The notes under the pieces: generated by a model
What the model was told of the DNA's origin: nothing
What the model saw: only the letters and a program-made list of their open reading frames with translations
The model's database searches: none
Program-made: the position numbers and the translations under genes
Assembly (NCBI RefSeq): GCF_003935715.1
Contig: NZ_RHPP01000026.1
Span: 1 to 35,847, forward strand
Source of the DNA: Stenotrophomonas sp. 278
GTDB taxonomy: Bacteria; Pseudomonadota; Gammaproteobacteria; Xanthomonadales; Xanthomonadaceae
Direction: 5' to 3'
Length of the DNA stretch: 35,847 nt
Part shown: positions 6,640 to 35,208 of the stretch, in pieces
How the letters are laid out: each line of letters starts with the position of its first letter
Position numbering within the stretch: position 1 is the stretch's first letter

Positions 6640-7482
6640 TTACTTGCGGGCGCGCTTGGCCGGAGCCTTGCGGACGGCCTTCCTGGCGGTCGCGGTCTTC
6701 TTGGCGACGGCCTTCTTGGCCACAGCCGACTTGCGGGCGACAGCCTTTTGGGCGGTGGCGGTCTTCTTGCCGACCACCTTCTTGGCAGCAGCCGACTTCT
6801 TGGTCACAGCCTTCCTGGTGGCGGCGACCTTCTTGCCGACAACCTTCCTGGTCGCAGCGGTCTTGCGGGTCGCGGCCTTCTTCGAAGCGGCGGCCTTCTT
6901 GCCGACGACCTTCTTGGCGGCAGCGGACTTCTTGGTCACGGCCTTCCTGGTGGCGGCGACCTTCTTGCCGGCAACCTTCTTGGCGGCAGCGGTCTTCTTG
7001 GTCACGGCCTTCTTGGCGGTGGTGGCCTTCTTGCCGACGGTCTTCCTGGCGGCCGCAGCCTTCTTGGCCACGGTCTTCTTGGCAGCGGCGGCGTTCTTGC
7101 CGACGGCCTTGGTGGTCTTGGTCACGGCCTTCTCGGCAGCGGCCTTCTTCTTGGCAACCTGCTTGGTCAGGGCAGCGGCTTCGGCCTTGGCGTTGTTCTT
7201 GGCCACTTCCAGCTTCTTCTTGGCGTTGGCCAGACGCTTGCTGACGGTCTTGGCGGCGTTGTCAGCCTTCTTGGCAACGGTCTTTTCAGCCTTCTTGACG
7301 GCCTTCTTGACCTTGGCAACCTGGGTGTTGGCGGCCTTGCGGGCGCGCTTGACGGTTTTCTTTACCGAGGCCACTGCTTCTTCGGCGGTGGTGGCGATGG
7401 CTTCGCCCACATTGCCAGCGGTTTCTTTAACGCTATCGACGCCCTGCGACAGGGACGTCGCCACACCGTTTCCATTGCTCAT
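6640..7482 (-). CDS. Histone H1-like lysine/alanine-rich DNA-binding protein
   Basis: A 280-residue protein. Residues 1-45 are ordinary, mildly acidic and helical (MSNGNGVATSLSQGVDSVKE). From about residue 45 to the end it is a run of degenerate Lys/Ala/Val/Thr repeats of the AAKKAVAKK and KKVVGKK kind, with a near-duplicate unit (RKVVGKKVAATRKAVTKKSA occurs in very similar form twice), ending APAKRARK. This composition is that of eukaryotic H1 tails and of bacterial H1-like proteins such as AlgP, which bind DNA non-specifically. A nucleoid or expression-modulating role is likely; specific targets are unknown. Start ATG 7482 has TTGGAGG just upstream. Repeat number in such genes often varies between strains through slippage or recombination. 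Confidence 0.85.
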   Translation of the reverse strand: MSNGNGVATSLSQGVDSVKETAGNVGEAIATTAEEAVASVKKTVKRARKAANTQVAKVKKAVKKAEKTVAKKADNAAKTVSKRLANAKKKLEVAKNNAKAEAAALTKQVAKKKAAAEKAVTKTTKAVGKNAAAAKKTVAKKAAAARKTVGKKATTAKKAVTKKTAAAKKVAGKKVAATRKAVTKKSAAAKKVVGKKAAASKKAATRKTAATRKVVGKKVAATRKAVTKKSAAAKKVVGKKTATAQKAVARKSAVAKKAVAKKTATARKAVRKAPAKRARK

Positions 7483-28392: not shown

Positions 28393-29685
28393 TCATGCAT
28401 CGCGGAGAACCGCGAGGGCAGCCAGCACCTGGTCCACCTCGGCTTCCAGCTTGAACAGCTCGCTCTGCAGCTGGTCGCCCTGTTCGGCCTGCTTGAGCAC
28501 GGCGATCAGCTGGCCGGCATCGCGCGGTGAATCGAAGCCTTCGCTCTGGATCAGCAGGGTGCCGTCGCTGGCCTGCAGCTTGAAGTAGAAGCGACCGTCT
28601 TTTTCGCGATACTGCTTGAACAGCGGCGGCGCGGCGCGCAGTTCCTGCGCGTCGTCGGCGATGGCGTCGCGGGCGGTGGACAGGTCACGCAGGCCGACCG
28701 CGTGGCGCAGTTCCTTCAACAGCGGAATGGCGTACTGCTCGCGCAGCTGCTGGCCGCGGCGGCGCAGCAGCGCCTCGATCTTCTCCGGCTCGGCCATCAG
28801 CGCGTCGTAACGCTCGCGCAGCGGAGTCAGTTCCTGATCGATGCGCTCGAACAGCTGCTGCTTGGCGTCACCCCAGCTGATGCCGTCGGCGAAGGCCTGG
28901 GCAAACGCGGCAGTCTGCTCCGGGCTGGCGAAGGCCTGGTACATCTGGAACAGCGCCGAGCCTTCGGTGCTCTTCGGTTCGCCCGGGGCGCGCGAGTCGG
29001 TCAGGATCGAGAACACCAGCTTCTTCAGCTCCGCGCGCGGCGCGAACAGCGGAATGGTGTTGTGGTAGCTCTTGCTCATCTTGCGGCCATCCAGGCCGGC
29101 CAGGGTGGCGACCTGCTCGTCGATCACGACGTCCGGCAACGGGAAGTACTCCTTCCCGTATACATGGTTGAAGCGCTGGGCGAAGTCGCGCGCCATCTCG
29201 ATGTGCTGGATCTGGTCACGACCCACCGGCACCCGGTTGGCCTTGAAGATCAGAATGTCGGCAGCCATCAGCACGGGATACATGAACAGCCCGGCGCTGA
29301 TGCCTGCGTCTTCGTCCAGCTGCTCCTCGCGGTTCTTGTCCACCGCCGCCTTGTAGGCATGAGCGCGGTTGAGGATGCCCTTGCTGGCGATCACGGTCAG
29401 GAACCACATCAGCTCGGTGGTTTCCGGGATGTCGCTCTGGCGGTAGAACCATACCTTTTCCGGGTCCAGGCCACAGGCCAGCCAGCTGGCGGCAATCTCC
29501 AGGGTGGAACGCTGGGTGCGCTCGGGCTCCTGCGCCTTGATCAGGCTGTGCAGGTCGGCCAGGAAGAAGAAGCTCTCGATCTCCGAGGCCTGGCTGGCGG
29601 CAATGGCCGGGCGGATGGCACCGACGTAGTTGCCCAGGTGGGGCGTGCCGGAAGGGGTGATGCCGGTAAGAACGCGGGTGGTCAT
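28393..29685 (-). CDS. trpS: Tryptophanyl-tRNA synthetase with extra C-terminal domain
   Basis: A 430-residue class I synthetase that charges tRNA-Trp. The HIGH-type signature is PSGTPHLGNY (11-20) and the KMSKS loop is GRKMSKS (202-206). GRDQIQHIEMARDFAQRF (about 155-172) is the Trp/ATP pocket helix typical of TrpS. Standard TrpS ends at about residue 335-350; here about 80 further residues follow. Residues about 358-397 (DGRFYFKLQASDGTLLIQSE then GFDSPRDAG) resemble the YegP/DUF1508 fold, and the last ~30 form a coiled-coil-like helix (LQSELFKLEAEVDQVLAAL). This long form occurs in some gamma- and beta-proteobacteria. Start ATG 29685; a GGGGG-like site is close upstream. The leader contains an inverted repeat (29703-29727). 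Confidence 0.95.
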   Translation of the reverse strand: MTTRVLTGITPSGTPHLGNYVGAIRPAIAASQASEIESFFFLADLHSLIKAQEPERTQRSTLEIAASWLACGLDPEKVWFYRQSDIPETTELMWFLTVIASKGILNRAHAYKAAVDKNREEQLDEDAGISAGLFMYPVLMAADILIFKANRVPVGRDQIQHIEMARDFAQRFNHVYGKEYFPLPDVVIDEQVATLAGLDGRKMSKSYHNTIPLFAPRAELKKLVFSILTDSRAPGEPKSTEGSALFQMYQAFASPEQTAAFAQAFADGISWGDAKQQLFERIDQELTPLRERYDALMAEPEKIEALLRRRGQQLREQYAIPLLKELRHAVGLRDLSTARDAIADDAQELRAAPPLFKQYREKDGRFYFKLQASDGTLLIQSEGFDSPRDAGQLIAVLKQAEQGDQLQSELFKLEAEVDQVLAALAVLRDA

Positions 29686-29702
29686 GGGGGAATCATGTCG
29701 GA

Positions 29703-29727
29703 CAGGTAAACGCCCCCAGTTTACCTG
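29703..29727. promoter_or_regulatory. Inverted repeat in the trpS leader / divergent promoter region
   Basis: CAGGTAAAC-GCCCCCA-GTTTACCTG is a perfect 9-bp dyad, 18 bp ahead of the trpS start and 68 bp ahead of the divergent gene at 29795. It is A/T-richer than its flanks in its arms. It could be an operator or an RNA hairpin near the ribosome binding site. It has no T-box or trp-leader features. Confidence 0.45.
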
Positions 29728-29794
29728 CCCCGGCGCAACCCCGTTGGCCCGGGTGGCACGTTCAACCCAGTACCTTCCCAGCGGATGCGCTGCC

Positions 29795-30607
29795 ATGAGA
29801 CACCTGATCCTGCCCCTGCTCGCCACACTGGCGCTGACCGGGTTCAAGCCCTACCCACCGGACCCGGGCCTGAACTCGCCGGTGGAACTGAGCATCGTTG
29901 ACCGCGGCCAAGGCAACGAGCTGCCGTACTACAGCCAGCGCGGCCAGCGCTGGGTCGCTGGCCAGAACGGTCACCCGTACAGCCTGCGGCTTACCAACCG
30001 CACCCCCAGGCGCTTGCTGGTCGTGCTGTCGGTGGACGGATTGAACGTGATCAATGGCCAGGTGGCCTCTTCGGACCAGACCGGCTACGTGCTGGAACCG
30101 TGGCAACGCGCGGACATCACCGGCTGGCGAAAGTCGCACCAGGAAGTGGCGCAGTTCGTGTTCACCGACCCGGGCCGCAGCTACGCCAGCCGAACCGGCC
30201 GCCCGGACAACGTCGGCGTGATCGGCATGGCGGTGTTCAACGAAGCGCCGTATCTCCGTCCGCCGGTGGCACCGGCAGCGCCGATGGCGCGTCAGCGCGC
30301 GCAGGTACCGGCTGCAGAGTCGGCTGACCGCGCGTTGTCGTCGGTCGAGGCGACGGGTTCGGCGGTCGCGTCGGCCCCGGCTCCGGCACTGGGCACCGGG
30401 CATGGCGCGCGCGAATCGTCGTATTCGGGAAGCACGGACTTCCGCCGCGCCAGCCCCATGCCGGTGCAGCAGGTGTCGGTCCGTTATGACAGCGAACGCA
30501 ACCTGATCGCGCGCGGCATCATCCCCCGGCCGCGTCCGGTGGGGGGCGAGCCGCGGGCTTTTCCGGGCCAGTTCGTGCCGGATCCGCCGCCGTACCGCTG
30601 GCGTTGA
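29795..30607 (+). CDS. Secreted Pro/Ala-rich protein, unknown function
   Basis: A 270-residue protein. The short N-terminal hydrophobic segment MRHLILPLLATLALTGF looks like a signal peptide, with cleavage site unclear. Residues about 20-155 look globular and beta-rich: VELSIVDRGQGNELPYYSQR, YSLRLTNRTPRRLLVVLSVD, WQRADITGWRKSHQEVAQFV. The stretch 'NRTPRRLLVVLSVDGLNV' is reminiscent of surface or envelope accessory domains, but no named family is recognised. The rest is Ala/Pro-rich and low complexity, ending FPGQFVPDPPPYRWR. ATG 29795 is chosen because it starts the signal; the frame is open further left but overlaps the trpS start region. It is divergent from trpS. Confidence 0.72.
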   Translation: MRHLILPLLATLALTGFKPYPPDPGLNSPVELSIVDRGQGNELPYYSQRGQRWVAGQNGHPYSLRLTNRTPRRLLVVLSVDGLNVINGQVASSDQTGYVLEPWQRADITGWRKSHQEVAQFVFTDPGRSYASRTGRPDNVGVIGMAVFNEAPYLRPPVAPAAPMARQRAQVPAAESADRALSSVEATGSAVASAPAPALGTGHGARESSYSGSTDFRRASPMPVQQVSVRYDSERNLIARGIIPRPRPVGGEPRAFPGQFVPDPPPYRWR

Positions 30608-31449: not shown

Positions 31450-32373
31450 TCAGTCGCGCATCAGGGTGGACTTGCCGAACAGGCTTTCCACCAGGTCTAC
31501 GGCGACCTCCGCCGTGATGTTGCGGGTGTCCAGCAGCGGGTTGAGTTCGACGATATCCAGCGACCCCATCTGTCCGGTGTCGGCGATCATCTCCATCACC
31601 AGCTGCGCCTCACGGTAGTTCACGCCGCCCATGACCGTGGTGCCCACGCCCGGCGCGATGCTTGGATCCAGGAAGTCCACATCGAAGCTGACATGCAGGT
31701 GCGTGTTGGCGTCCATGCCTGCCAGTGCAGCTTCGACAGTGCGCTTCATGCCCACTTCGTCGATGTAGCGCATGTCGTAGACATCCACCTTGTGCTGCTT
31801 GATCAGGCGCTTCTCATCGGGGTCCACCGAGCGGATGCCGATCTGGTGCACCTGCTGCGGCGAGATCGCCGGCGCGCTGCCGCCCAGATGGGTCAGCGCC
31901 TCCGGCCCCAGTCCGCACAGGCACGCTACGGGCATGCCGTGCACGTTGCCCGAAGGGGTCACCTCACTGGTGTTGAAGTCAGAGTGCGCGTCGAGCCACA
32001 GCACGCGCAGATTGCGGCCCTGCTCCCGGCACCAGCGCGCCACTGCGGTAATGGAGCCGATGCCCAGGCAGTGGTCGCCGCCAAGCATGATCGGCACGCG
32101 GCCGTCCTGCAGCTCGGCATAGGTGGCGTCCATCAGCGCGCGGTTCCAGGCGACCACCTCGTCCAGATGACGGTAGCCCTGGTCGGGTGCCGTCCAGGGA
32201 TTGCGCGGGCCATCGAGGTTGCCGCAGTCGCGAACGTTGACGCCACGCGCCTCCAGCGCCTGGGCCAGCCCGGCAATGCGCAGCGCCTCTGGCCCCAGCC
32301 CCGCACCGCGATGGCCGGCCCCCACGTCGGTGGGCACGCCAATCAGGGAAACCGGGGGAAGACGCTTGCTCAT
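31450..32373 (-). CDS. rocF: Arginase
   Basis: A 307-residue manganese enzyme that splits L-arginine to ornithine and urea. Metal ligands and motifs: GGDHCLG with His101, WLDAHSDFN with Asp128, His130 and Asp132, and SFDVDFLDP with Asp231 and Asp233. The length and the opening PVSLIGVPTDVGAGHRGAGL are typical of RocF-type arginases rather than agmatinases; ELNPLLD near the C-terminus also fits. Start ATG 32373 follows TTTGGAGTC. A perfect Clp/CRP-like box lies 43 bp upstream (32416-32431), so control by Clp is possible. No other arginine-catabolism genes are adjacent. Confidence 0.95.
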   Translation of the reverse strand: MSKRLPPVSLIGVPTDVGAGHRGAGLGPEALRIAGLAQALEARGVNVRDCGNLDGPRNPWTAPDQGYRHLDEVVAWNRALMDATYAELQDGRVPIMLGGDHCLGIGSITAVARWCREQGRNLRVLWLDAHSDFNTSEVTPSGNVHGMPVACLCGLGPEALTHLGGSAPAISPQQVHQIGIRSVDPDEKRLIKQHKVDVYDMRYIDEVGMKRTVEAALAGMDANTHLHVSFDVDFLDPSIAPGVGTTVMGGVNYREAQLVMEMIADTGQMGSLDIVELNPLLDTRNITAEVAVDLVESLFGKSTLMRD

Positions 32374-32415
32374 GCTGACTCCAAACACGATGGAAATGAC
32401 CTCCCAGTCTAGTGA

Positions 32416-32431
32416 TGTGATGGTTTTCACA
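32416..32431. promoter_or_regulatory. CRP/Clp operator, perfect consensus
   Basis: TGTGA-TGGTTT-TCACA is an exact match to the TGTGA-N6-TCACA box recognised by CRP and, in Xanthomonadaceae, by the c-di-GMP-responsive regulator Clp. It is 43 bp from the arginase start and 254 bp from the Roadblock/GTPase cassette start, so either or both could be controlled. Confidence 0.7.
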
Positions 32432-32537
32432 CTCGCGGCGTTGCAGCACCCAATACCCGCACACGGTCGTTCCACGGCGCAATGTGACCCATTGCGTCGA
32501 GCCGCGACGCAGCGTGAAAGCCTTGTGTGTCAACGGT

Positions 32538-32567: not shown

Positions 32568-32684
32568 ACCTTTCATTAGCCAAGATGACGTCACCTGCGT
32601 GATACATTTCGCACTTCTTCGCAGTGCTGATTGACTAACCCGCAGAGGGTTGGTCTGTCGTTCGTCGTGTTCAGGGGGCAGTAC

Positions 32685-33137
32685 GTGCAACGCAGTAACA
32701 TCCATCAGATCGTCCGCAACGCCAGTGGTGAAAGCCAGCCGGCGCGCCAGCTGTATGATGCCGCCGCGATTGAAGACGCGTTCCGTCAGGCGCGCGAACG
32801 CGAATCCGGCCTGACCCTGTTGATGCTGTCCACGGCCGATGGCCGCGCTGTTGCTGAAGATTCGGCACTGGGCGTGGACGGTCGTCGACTGGCCGCGATG
32901 GCCAACTCCTTCCTTACGCTCGGTGAAACCGTCTCGCGCGAACTTGCGTTGAGCGAGGCCGACTACGCCACCATCTGCACCAAGCTCGGAAACGTGGTGC
33001 TGATCCGCATCAGCGCCGACAAGCCGCTGACCCTCACCGCTGTTGCCAGCCACGACGTCAACATGGCGGTGCTGCTGTTCCACGCGCGCGAATGCGCCGG
33101 ACGCCTGCACGCCCTGCTGCCGCCGCGCGCGGGCTGA
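32685..33137 (+). CDS. Roadblock/LC7-domain protein 1
   Basis: A 150-residue protein. Residues about 35-145 have the Roadblock/LC7 (longin-like) beta-alpha pattern: LTLLMLSTADGRAVAEDSAL (two-strand start), RLAAMANSFLTLGETVSREL (long helix), NVVLIRISADKPLTLTAVAS (strands) and MAVLLFHAREC. Such proteins (MglB and relatives) bind small Ras-like GTPases as activators or scaffolds. The start is GTG 32685: GGGGG lies 6 nt upstream and MQRSNIHQIVRNASG begins there; an upstream TTG at 32631 is unlikely. It is the first gene of a four-gene group with a second Roadblock protein, a two-domain protein and a GTPase, so it likely acts on the GTPase at 34592. The exact partner is inferred. Confidence 0.8.
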   Translation: MQRSNIHQIVRNASGESQPARQLYDAAAIEDAFRQARERESGLTLLMLSTADGRAVAEDSALGVDGRRLAAMANSFLTLGETVSRELALSEADYATICTKLGNVVLIRISADKPLTLTAVASHDVNMAVLLFHARECAGRLHALLPPRAG

Positions 33138-33214
33138 CCCTTCCCGTTTTGTTGTGTCCTACCGGCAGGCGTCTGTCTGCTGCCCCCTGTGTCTGAGCAA
33201 AAAGGATTTGTCGT

Positions 33215-33574
33215 ATGCCGAATCATTCGCTTGAAAAGCTGAACTCCCTCGCCGGTTTCGTTGGTGCGGCCCTCGTTGACGGTGACAGCGGCATGGCCCT
33301 GGCCATGGCTGGCGGCGGCAACATCAACCTGGAACTGGCGGCAGCCGGCAACACCGAAGTAGTGCGCGCCAAGCGTCGCGTGGCCACCTCGCTGGGCCTG
33401 TCCGATTCGATCGAAGACATCCTGATCACGCTGGACACCCAGTACCACCTGATCCGTCCGCTGGAAAGCAACCCGATGCTGTTCCTGTACGTGATCATGG
33501 ACCGCAGCAAGGCCAACCTGGCGATGTCGCGCCACGAACTGAAGGCCATGGAAAAGACCCTGGACTTCAGCTGA
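33215..33574 (+). CDS. Roadblock/LC7-domain protein 2
   Basis: A 119-residue protein made almost wholly of one Roadblock/LC7-like domain: [20 protein letters not shown] (strand-strand), [20 protein letters not shown] (helix), [17 protein letters not shown] (strands), [19 protein letters not shown] (strand, helix). Compared with Roadblock protein 1 the sequence is quite different, which points to a distinct role, for example a heterodimer partner. ATG 33215 is preceded by AAAAAGGA at suitable spacing. It is separated from Roadblock 1 by 77 bp and from the next gene by a very strong hairpin. Confidence 0.82.
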
Positions 33575-33582
33575 TCGCCTGA

Positions 33583-33623
33583 GGTCCACATGCAGCGCCC
33601 GCACGCGGGGCTGCATGTGGACC
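33583..33623. repeat. Long perfect hairpin inside the cassette
   Basis: GGTCCACATGCAGC (33583-33596) pairs with GCTGCATGTGGACC (33610-33623). Inside, CCCGC (33598-33602) pairs with GCGGG (33605-33609), with one bulged G. The stem is thus 14 + 5 bp. No T-run follows. It starts 9 bp after the Roadblock 2 stop and ends 16 bp before the next start. Confidence 0.75.
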
Positions 33624-33638
33624 GTGCGACCTGTCCCG

Positions 33639-34592
33639 ATGAATACCCCCCTTCGTAGTTTCCGCGTGGCCGCCGCGGGCCTGGATGTGCTGCACCAGAC
33701 CCGGTTGAAGCTGGCCTGTTCAATGCTGCTGGCCGAGCGCATGGACGTGCAGCTGATCCCCTGGAGCGGCGAAGCCGACCTGCTGGTGATCGGCCTGGAC
33801 CATGCCGACGCCGCCCGCACGCTCAGCGAAGCGAACGCGTCCAACGTGCCGACGCTGTCAATCGCGCGTCGCTACGCCGACGCCGCCTCCGGCCGCCTGC
33901 CGCACGGTGCCACCGTGCGCGACATCAACGAACAGCTGTCGAGCCTGCTGCTCAATGCGCCGGCTGCGGCTGCCGAACGCCCCTCGCCCGGCGTGCCCAA
34001 GCTGCTGCGCCTGGCGCAGATGCCGGCCAGCACGGATCTGCACCTGCTGCAGCGAGGCGGCATCAGCGCGGCGGTGGACACCACGACCCGCAGCATCGCG
34101 TTGCCGGCCTCGCTGACCCTTGCAGAGCTGGTGGCGCAGCTGGATGACAGCACGTGGTCGTCAGAAGTTGTCGATGCGGCCACCTTCCAGCACCAGTACA
34201 CCTATCGCCTGCCGCAGCGCCACTCGTTCGAAGCGCTTTACTTCGCGCTTGCGCGTTACCGCCCTGAGCTGTTGCCGGCGCTCGATGCGCTGCCAGCGCT
34301 GAAACTGCGGCACTGGCCCGACCTGCACGCCGACGATGTACCGGCCAACTGGCTGCTGGCCATCGCGTGCCTGCATGCACGTTCCTGGCAGCCCGCCGCG
34401 CTGGCTGCGGCTTGCCATCTGCCGCGTAACACGGTGGAATCGCTCTTCTGTGCTGCTGTTGCCAGTGGCCTCGCTCTGAACCAGGATGCCGCCGTGCCCA
34501 GCCCCACCCGCCGTAAAGACGCCAGCGACTCACGTTTCTTCTCGTGGGTGGCCCGCCGCTTCGGCCTGAACCTGTTCCAAGGGGGTCAGTGA
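33639..34592 (+). CDS. Receiver-like plus winged-helix-like protein, unknown function
   Basis: A 317-residue soluble protein that I cannot place in a named family. Residues 6-105 alternate strands and helices like a receiver or Rossmann domain (SFRVAAAG, then a helix, MDVQLIPW, ADLLVIGLD, VPTLSIAR) but lack obvious phospho-acceptor geometry. A middle part (120-180) is uncharacterised. Residues about 240-283 resemble a winged helix: WQPAALAAACHLPRNTVESL followed by VASGLAL. The tail is basic with SRFFSWVARRFGLNLF. Start is taken as ATG 33639; ATG 33615 lies inside the hairpin and would extend it by eight residues. Neither start has a strong binding site. Its TGA overlaps the GTPase ATG by one base, so the two are coupled. 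Confidence 0.72.
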   Translation: MNTPLRSFRVAAAGLDVLHQTRLKLACSMLLAERMDVQLIPWSGEADLLVIGLDHADAARTLSEANASNVPTLSIARRYADAASGRLPHGATVRDINEQLSSLLLNAPAAAAERPSPGVPKLLRLAQMPASTDLHLLQRGGISAAVDTTTRSIALPASLTLAELVAQLDDSTWSSEVVDAATFQHQYTYRLPQRHSFEALYFALARYRPELLPALDALPALKLRHWPDLHADDVPANWLLAIACLHARSWQPAALAAACHLPRNTVESLFCAAVASGLALNQDAAVPSPTRRKDASDSRFFSWVARRFGLNLFQGGQ

Positions 34593-35131
34593 TGAGCCTG
34601 CCCGCCAACAAGCTGGTGTTCGTCGGCAGCATGGGTGCCGGCAAGACCACTGCGGTGCGCGCGATTTCCGATATCGAACCGGTCAGCACCGAAATGCCGC
34701 TCAGCGGCGACACCGTCGGCGAAAAGGTGGAAACCACCGTCGCGCTGGATTACAGCTCGATTGAACTGGACGACGGCGAACTGCTGCACGTGTACGGCGT
34801 ACCCGGCCAGCGCTACCTGGATTTCATGTGGCCGATGGTGTGCGAAGGCGCACTCGGTGTGATCGTGCTGGTCAGCGCCGGTCACCCGGAAGCCGTGGAA
34901 TCGACCGTTGAGCTGCTGCAGGAATTCTCGCGGATTGCGCCGGAGGCCAGTCTGGCCGTTGGTGTGACCCGTTCGGATGAGTACCCGGCGCTGCTGATTC
35001 CGGAGTTCCGCAATGCGCTGTTCGAAGCCGGGCATCGCCTGCCGGTGATGCGCGTGGACGCCCGGTCGGCGACCCAGGTGACATTCCTGGTGAAGTCGCT
35101 GTTGTCGTATCGGTACGCTGAGACGAACTAA
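34592..35131 (+). CDS. Small Ras-like GTPase (MglA/COG2229-like)
   Basis: A 179-residue GTPase. G1/Walker A is GSMGAGKTT (12-20). The switch-I region reads VETTVALDYSSIELDDG, the form seen in bacterial GTPases paired with Roadblock proteins (COG2229). G3 is YGVPGQRYLDFMW, with PGQ replacing the Ras DxxGQ, typical of this group. G4 is GVTRSDE, where the usual N/TKxD has Arg in place of Lys; Asp remains. The ATG overlaps the preceding TGA, and GGGGG (34581-34585) is its ribosome binding site. Roadblock proteins upstream are likely regulators. The end of the gene lies next to a convergent tRNA gene, with no terminator visible. Confidence 0.85.
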   Translation: MSLPANKLVFVGSMGAGKTTAVRAISDIEPVSTEMPLSGDTVGEKVETTVALDYSSIELDDGELLHVYGVPGQRYLDFMWPMVCEGALGVIVLVSAGHPEAVESTVELLQEFSRIAPEASLAVGVTRSDEYPALLIPEFRNALFEAGHRLPVMRVDARSATQVTFLVKSLLSYRYAETN

Positions 35132-35132
35132 G

Positions 35133-35208
35133 TGGTGCCGACACCCGGATTCGAACTGGGGACCTACCGCTTACAAGGCGGTTGCTCTACCAACTGAGCT
35201 ATGCCGGC
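35133..35208 (-). tRNA. tRNA-Thr (anticodon UGU)
   Basis: The minus strand gives a 76-nt cloverleaf including encoded CCA. Acceptor GCCGGCA/TGTCGGC (one G-T pair), D arm GCTC...GAGC, anticodon stem ACCGC/GCGGT with loop CTTGTAA and anticodon TGT, T loop TTCGAAT. The T stem CCCAG/CCGGG contains one A-C mismatch. Anticodon UGU reads ACA (Thr) codons. The gene begins 1 bp past the GTPase stop, on the opposite strand. Confidence 0.95.

Follow-up and report, generated by a model that had tools for sequence, protein, structure and literature searches.

The window analysed here, a 35,847-nucleotide stretch of contig NZ_RHPP01000026.1 of Stenotrophomonas sp. 278, carries a cassette of four genes, designated R1, R2, X and G, which encode two Roadblock-type proteins, a multidomain protein and a small GTPase (Table 1). 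An earlier note on this DNA had placed the four frames on a single strand with the last two overlapping by one base, and these coordinates are confirmed, base 34592 being common to the stop of X and the start of G. The note had also described the cassette as lacking a kinase; likewise, no histidine kinase frame was seen beside it when the neighbouring frames were read by eye, with no hidden Markov model (HMM) scan of these neighbours. The cassette is almost certainly a small-GTPase module of the Group 3 MglA type. Sets of this kind, in which a GTPase of the MglA family is accompanied by one or two MglB-type Roadblock proteins and by a third protein predicted to have a receiver-like N-terminus and a winged-helix-like C-terminus, are already in print, with Stenotrophomonas and Xanthomonas named among their beta- and gamma-proteobacterial hosts (PMC4316618), and the present cassette has the same parts and the same domain prediction for the third protein. 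We add that the receiver phospho-site is lost in the branch to which the window belongs, and that the tail of X retains a possible membrane- or partner-binding helix.

Table 1 Features of the cassette, numbered from the first base of the window
Feature	Positions	Strand	Description
R1	32685..33137	+	Roadblock/LC7 protein of 150 aa, MglB/CvnB type; starts at GTG, with TTG at 32631 as a possible alternative
R2	33215..33574	+	Second Roadblock-like protein, divergent, 119 aa
R2-X hairpin	33583..33623		17-nt arms, 94% complementary, 7 nt between arms; strand unassigned
X	33639..34592	+	317 aa; predicted receiver-like domain, middle alpha/beta domain, winged helix and C-terminal amphipathic helix
G	34592..35131	+	Small Ras-like GTPase of 179 aa; MglA family, Group 3 type

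The motifs of the GTPase place it within the published classification. According to PMC4316618, MglA proteins of Groups 2-5 carry a threonine in G2 together with GTPGQ, and Groups 2 and 3 are marked by a degenerate G4 and by DAR. G has the threonine in G2, a GTPGQ-like G3 (GVPGQ), a degenerate G4 (TRSD) and DAR in G5, alongside the motif GSMGAGKTT, whereas the Group 1 GTPases of Myxococcus combine TVPGQ with an arginine in G2 (PMC4316618). The second G3 residue is variable, being V in the window versus T in the published consensus; G12, G17, K18, T49, G69, P71-G72-Q73 and D156/R158 of DAR are invariant in all 32 aligned GTPases. In Pfam, PF03029 matches G with 35.2 bits against a cut-off of 27 (E 1.4e-8), the Arf, Roc and Ras families all staying under their own cut-offs, and in the PDB the matches include Rab1 (0.0013) and MglA (0.0047). 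The GTPases of Stenotrophomonas sp. PS02289 and S. rhizophila are 99% and 92% identical to G, which places the window in Stenotrophomonas.

Two Roadblock proteins had been proposed in the earlier note, which holds well for R1 and more loosely for R2. Searched singly with the Robl_LC7 HMM, both window proteins fall below the Pfam cut-off of 23 (19.9 bits for R1, 18.2 bits for R2). Among aligned proteins, window included, Robl_LC7 is matched at E<=0.01 by 19/19 R1 (best 6.2e-18), in which D52 is invariant and G53 almost invariant, and by 4/17 R2. Against structures, the R1 profile finds Roadblock proteins at best at 6.5e-24, CvnB5 (3leq) at 3.5e-14 and LAMTOR2 of Ragulator from 5.9e-5, while the match to MglB (6h5b) is weak (0.094). 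The profiles of R2 and R1 can be aligned along 102 columns with P 4e-4 and a probability of 34%; in the PDB, the R2 profile places a ribosomal protein first (0.019) and a Roadblock protein second (0.053). R2 is thus a candidate Roadblock protein, a less certain assignment than R1, and the locus holds the one or two neighbouring MglB-type genes expected of Group 3.

The third protein had been described as receiver-like at its front and winged-helix-like at its end, and both folds appear in the predicted structure of X. The model comprises a receiver-like domain at 1-108 (receiver fold over 5-109), a linker, a middle alpha/beta domain at 121-207, a winged helix at about 236-281, a further linker and a C-terminal amphipathic helix at 298-307. 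No Pfam family matches the window's X; DUF742 in particular is unmatched at E<=1, and at E<=0.1 by all 68 aligned X. The front has the receiver fold of response regulators, and the X profile matches KdpE at 2.5e-4. In the window, however, the phosphoacceptor Asp, the Ser/Thr and the Lys are absent, their columns being occupied by G52, A76 and H89; judged from the alignment, this receiver is without phosphorylation residues. The triad is complete in 24/68 aligned X, so that some members retain the phospho-site, and its loss extends beyond the window's branch, 21/45 of the other aligned X being incomplete. The receiver columns were read at identities to the window's X as low as 11%, although the KdpE alignment supports them; the front of the X from locus L117 appears misaligned. 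For the winged helix, the best rows in fold comparison are GATOR1 chains. These counts derive from 81 X matches, from which six were removed (L102 twice, L106, the second of L117, L148 and L165) to give 75. The 68-row alignment (A5) consists of 67 of them plus the window's X, leaving out L094, L113, L116, L132, L147, L153, L160 and the second of L169; alignment A9 additionally omits L096. The X and GTPase sets are made up of related sequences, and counts in them are not independent events.

At its end, X has a linker of 10-24 residues followed by a helix (predicted local distance difference test score ~81 over 301-310). In the window this helix, SRFFSWVARRF, has a moment of 0.53 and a charge of +3. 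Using self-chosen cut-offs (moment 0.5 and charge +2 within the last 25 residues), we found that 66/75 X pass, compared with 20/386 neighbour frames (open frames of at least 200 codons, greedily chosen and not verified as genes), 205/1500 shuffled X tails, 2/81 G and 1/55 R2. A membrane helix and a docking helix would be equally good fits to this conserved tail.

The four genes are conserved together, as the earlier note had expected. All four are present in 33 of 40 neighbourhoods and X with G in 38, the exceptions being L059 and L088, which lack X, and L069, L071, L083, L085 and L089, which lack R2 (a weak R2 match in L059 overlaps R1 and was left uncounted). The order is R1-R2-X-G in 15 and X-G-R1-R2 in 18 of these. 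Among 80 named loci, the best 80 of 562, 75 have X at most 450 bp from G and on its strand, with 12 bp as the median gap (L142 scored as a miss, a second GTPase being used there). R1 is present in 75 of the 80 loci and R2 in 39, and further orders occur, such as R1-G-X (L112) and R2-X-G-R1 (L161). Where the gap between G and R1 exceeds 300 bp (32 loci), a frame of ~215 residues with a Roadblock-like end fills 29 by eye, and L143, L145 and L155 hold other frames. Across 149 genomes of the family, G occurs in 37 (1e-8) and X in 14 (0.001), two of the latter being short marginal matches. In a tree of 90 GTPases, built by a quick search with the Shimodaira-Hasegawa-like approximate likelihood ratio test (SH-aLRT) as its sole support, a branch with SH-aLRT 98 sets apart 27 R1-R2-X-G rows, whose hosts are all Lysobacteraceae, Rhodanobacteraceae or unclassified gamma-proteobacteria. 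The group of these rows was assigned from the gene-order table and includes L103, which lacks X; the remaining rows, grouped as "other", mix X-G-R1-R2 with other orders.

Some loci depart from these patterns. In L103, from Stenotrophomonas sp. Iso1, R1, R2 and G occur with no match to X, and in L056, L060 and L102 X is split across frames (as is G in L060), through decay or sequencing error. Microbacteriaceae (Actinomycetota) hold related sets, ordered G-R1-X in L116 and L153 and X-G-R1-R2 in L147. In L116, the only Microbacteriaceae locus whose frames were read, no kinase lies alongside by eye, and X has no obvious receiver front (a WYPDP-like start) and retains a stretch resembling a winged helix, along with the WPN motif and a basic tail.

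The same Stenotrophomonas genome contains a second cassette (L066, 6476-8830 of contig C298) with the order X-G-R1-R2, adjoining a frame that is aceK-like by eye. Its GTPase is 40% identical to G and sits on a long branch outside the R1-R2-X-G group. Within the first cassette, the stretch with the R2-X hairpin has a folding energy of -41.8 kcal/mol (z -5.4) and occurs once in the genome. The corresponding gaps of relatives often hold hairpins of different sequence, with z<=-2 in 15/25 folded; the 25 include the window and some near-copies, four loci were omitted for odd gap length, the stretch is shortened by start-codon choice in the near relatives L090 and L091, and the shuffles behind z fell back on single bases where no dinucleotide walk closed. 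The hairpin may set the ratio of the Roadblock proteins to X and G. Upstream on the opposite strand, frames 31450-32475 and 28393-29847 are, by eye, arginase and trpS, with ~210 bp between the arginase-like frame and the cassette, and a tRNA-Thr follows downstream at 35133-35208. Elsewhere in the window, 6640-7482 (-) encodes a long repeat protein rich in lysine and alanine, which by eye resembles histone H1.

The earlier note thus rightly read the locus as a kinase-less Roadblock-GTPase module, and it missed the lost phospho-site, the second cassette and the kept C-terminal helix. We infer the biochemical steps and the localisation of such a switch as follows. G would alternate between GTP- and GDP-bound states, and R1, most likely alone or with R2, would accelerate GTP hydrolysis as a GTPase-activating protein (GAP), as do MglB (PMC7519303) and MfpD (PMC9769811). 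X would most likely act positively on G, as the adaptor or exchange factor that fixes it at one cell site, because it combines a receiver and a winged helix at the gene position of DUF742; nucleotide exchange in Myxococcus is carried out by RomR/RomX (PMC7519303), and MfpC, a DUF742 protein, is likely a guanine nucleotide exchange factor (GEF; PMC13343842). As the phospho-site is lost, the receiver would be expected to take its input from the binding of another protein or ligand, not from phosphotransfer. The winged helix would bind protein, the basic amphipathic C-terminal helix would tether X to the membrane or a partner, replacing the membrane kinase of conservons, and GTP-bound G would act on an effector encoded elsewhere.

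We give this model in its entirety an even chance of being correct. Several points weigh against it. The exchange role of X is argued from analogy and from the position of its gene, and for MfpC the GEF role is left open in PMC9769811. The profile-profile likeness between X and DUF742 is weak (probability 5-10%, P 0.0078 and 0.003), and even with the shared gene position the DUF742-like role proposed for X in the earlier note is only weakly supported. Weak matches of the winged-helix profile (0.0035 to 0.034) include methyltransferase wings as well as a putative DNA-binding protein, and the charge count of the winged helix had no DNA-binding winged helices as control. The amphipathic tail test is not specific for membrane binding, as 31/77 R1 tails also pass. 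Finally, literature searches returned no biochemistry of any Group 3 protein; nor did they return, with the supplement of PMC4316618 outside their coverage, the division of X proteins into those with complete and those with lost phospho-sites, the basic amphipathic tail, the permuted orders or the R2-X hairpin.

Among known systems, the actinobacterial conservon (Group 2) or AGPS (cvnABCD; mfp operon) comes close to the cassette in gene order (Roadblock, winged-helix-like protein, GTPase), and its GTPase shares DAR and a degenerate G4 with G. The earlier note had called the cassette conservon-like, and X could be a DUF742 protein with an added receiver in a conservon relative that lost its kinase. 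Six Streptomyces plasmid conservons have this same Roadblock-DUF742-GTPase order, the X and DUF742 profiles align collinearly (P 0.003 versus 0.39 for the reversed control), and an amphipathic stretch likewise closes each of the six DUF742 proteins. That stretch, however, has a charge of 0 or -1, the profile probability is as low as given above, and the winged helix is a common fold. Moreover, the six CvnD GTPases form one side of a separate branch (SH-aLRT 100; long branches), and the conservon has the histidine kinase CvnA and, in the six loci compared, DUF742 proteins of 112-127 aa, unlike the cassette with its two Roadblock proteins, its receiver-bearing X of 317 aa and no kinase alongside. 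The cassette is therefore not a conservon, and descent from one by kinase loss seems to us rather doubtful. We consider it unlikely, and somewhat more so, that X works as a response regulator with a DNA-binding winged helix, through which the GTPase and Roadblock proteins would steer gene expression. Transcription control was suggested for Group 3 in PMC4316618, and receiver plus winged helix is a common response-regulator layout, in keeping with the KdpE match; in addition, weak matches link single members of the 68 X to the helix-turn-helix families HTH_28 (0.0053) and HTH_40 (0.0072), and the profile of the C-terminal part to a putative DNA-binding protein (0.034) as well as to transcription regulators (0.26 to 0.96).

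The Myxococcus MglA/MglB system with RomR/RomX resembles the cassette in having a Roadblock GAP, a GTPase and a receiver-domain protein, the last acting in nucleotide exchange. RomR is not known to have a winged helix. It is also encoded elsewhere in the genome, unlike X (PMC4316618). By analogy, GTP-bound G might position type IV pili or other polar machines, with R1 and R2 confining it to one pole. The MglA-family membership of G favours such a polarity switch, as does the Group 3 mgl locus of Snodgrassella, where colonisation was promoted by mutation of an orphan mglB, an effect that its authors potentially ascribe to altered type IV pilus-dependent motility (PMC11112851). Against it, pilT is above cut-off in 146/149 family genomes and the GTPase is present in only 37/149, which means that pili as such do not require the cassette; fliF is above cut-off in 78/149, and the cassette tracks neither gene. 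Pili may be the output, but this polarity switch is a tentative and rather improbable reading. In Deinococcus and Thermus operons the third gene likewise lies directly upstream of the GTPase, with the Roadblock gene downstream (two plasmid loci); it is annotated as hypothetical (Deinococcus) or DUF4388 (Thermus), and these GTPases form a branch of their own. A miniature of Rag-Ragulator-GATOR1 is highly unlikely: R1/R2 would form a heterodimeric platform like the Ragulator Roadblock pairs, with G on top, membrane-tailed X controlling G and the dead receiver acting as a protein-binding sensor. For a counterpart of GATOR1 NPRL2/NPRL3, the N-terminal domain to be expected is a longin domain, as contained in Npr2/Npr3 (PMC3521125), whereas the front of X is predicted to be a receiver fold.

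Group 3 MglA systems were recognised in 2014, from sequence. The phospho-site is kept in some members and lost in the window's branch, which makes a phosphorylation input testable by comparing the two, and the C-terminal helix of X offers a simple handle on the cellular site of the switch. Work on Group 3 would also bear on whether the winged-helix partner is an exchange factor, a question that these systems have in common with conservons.
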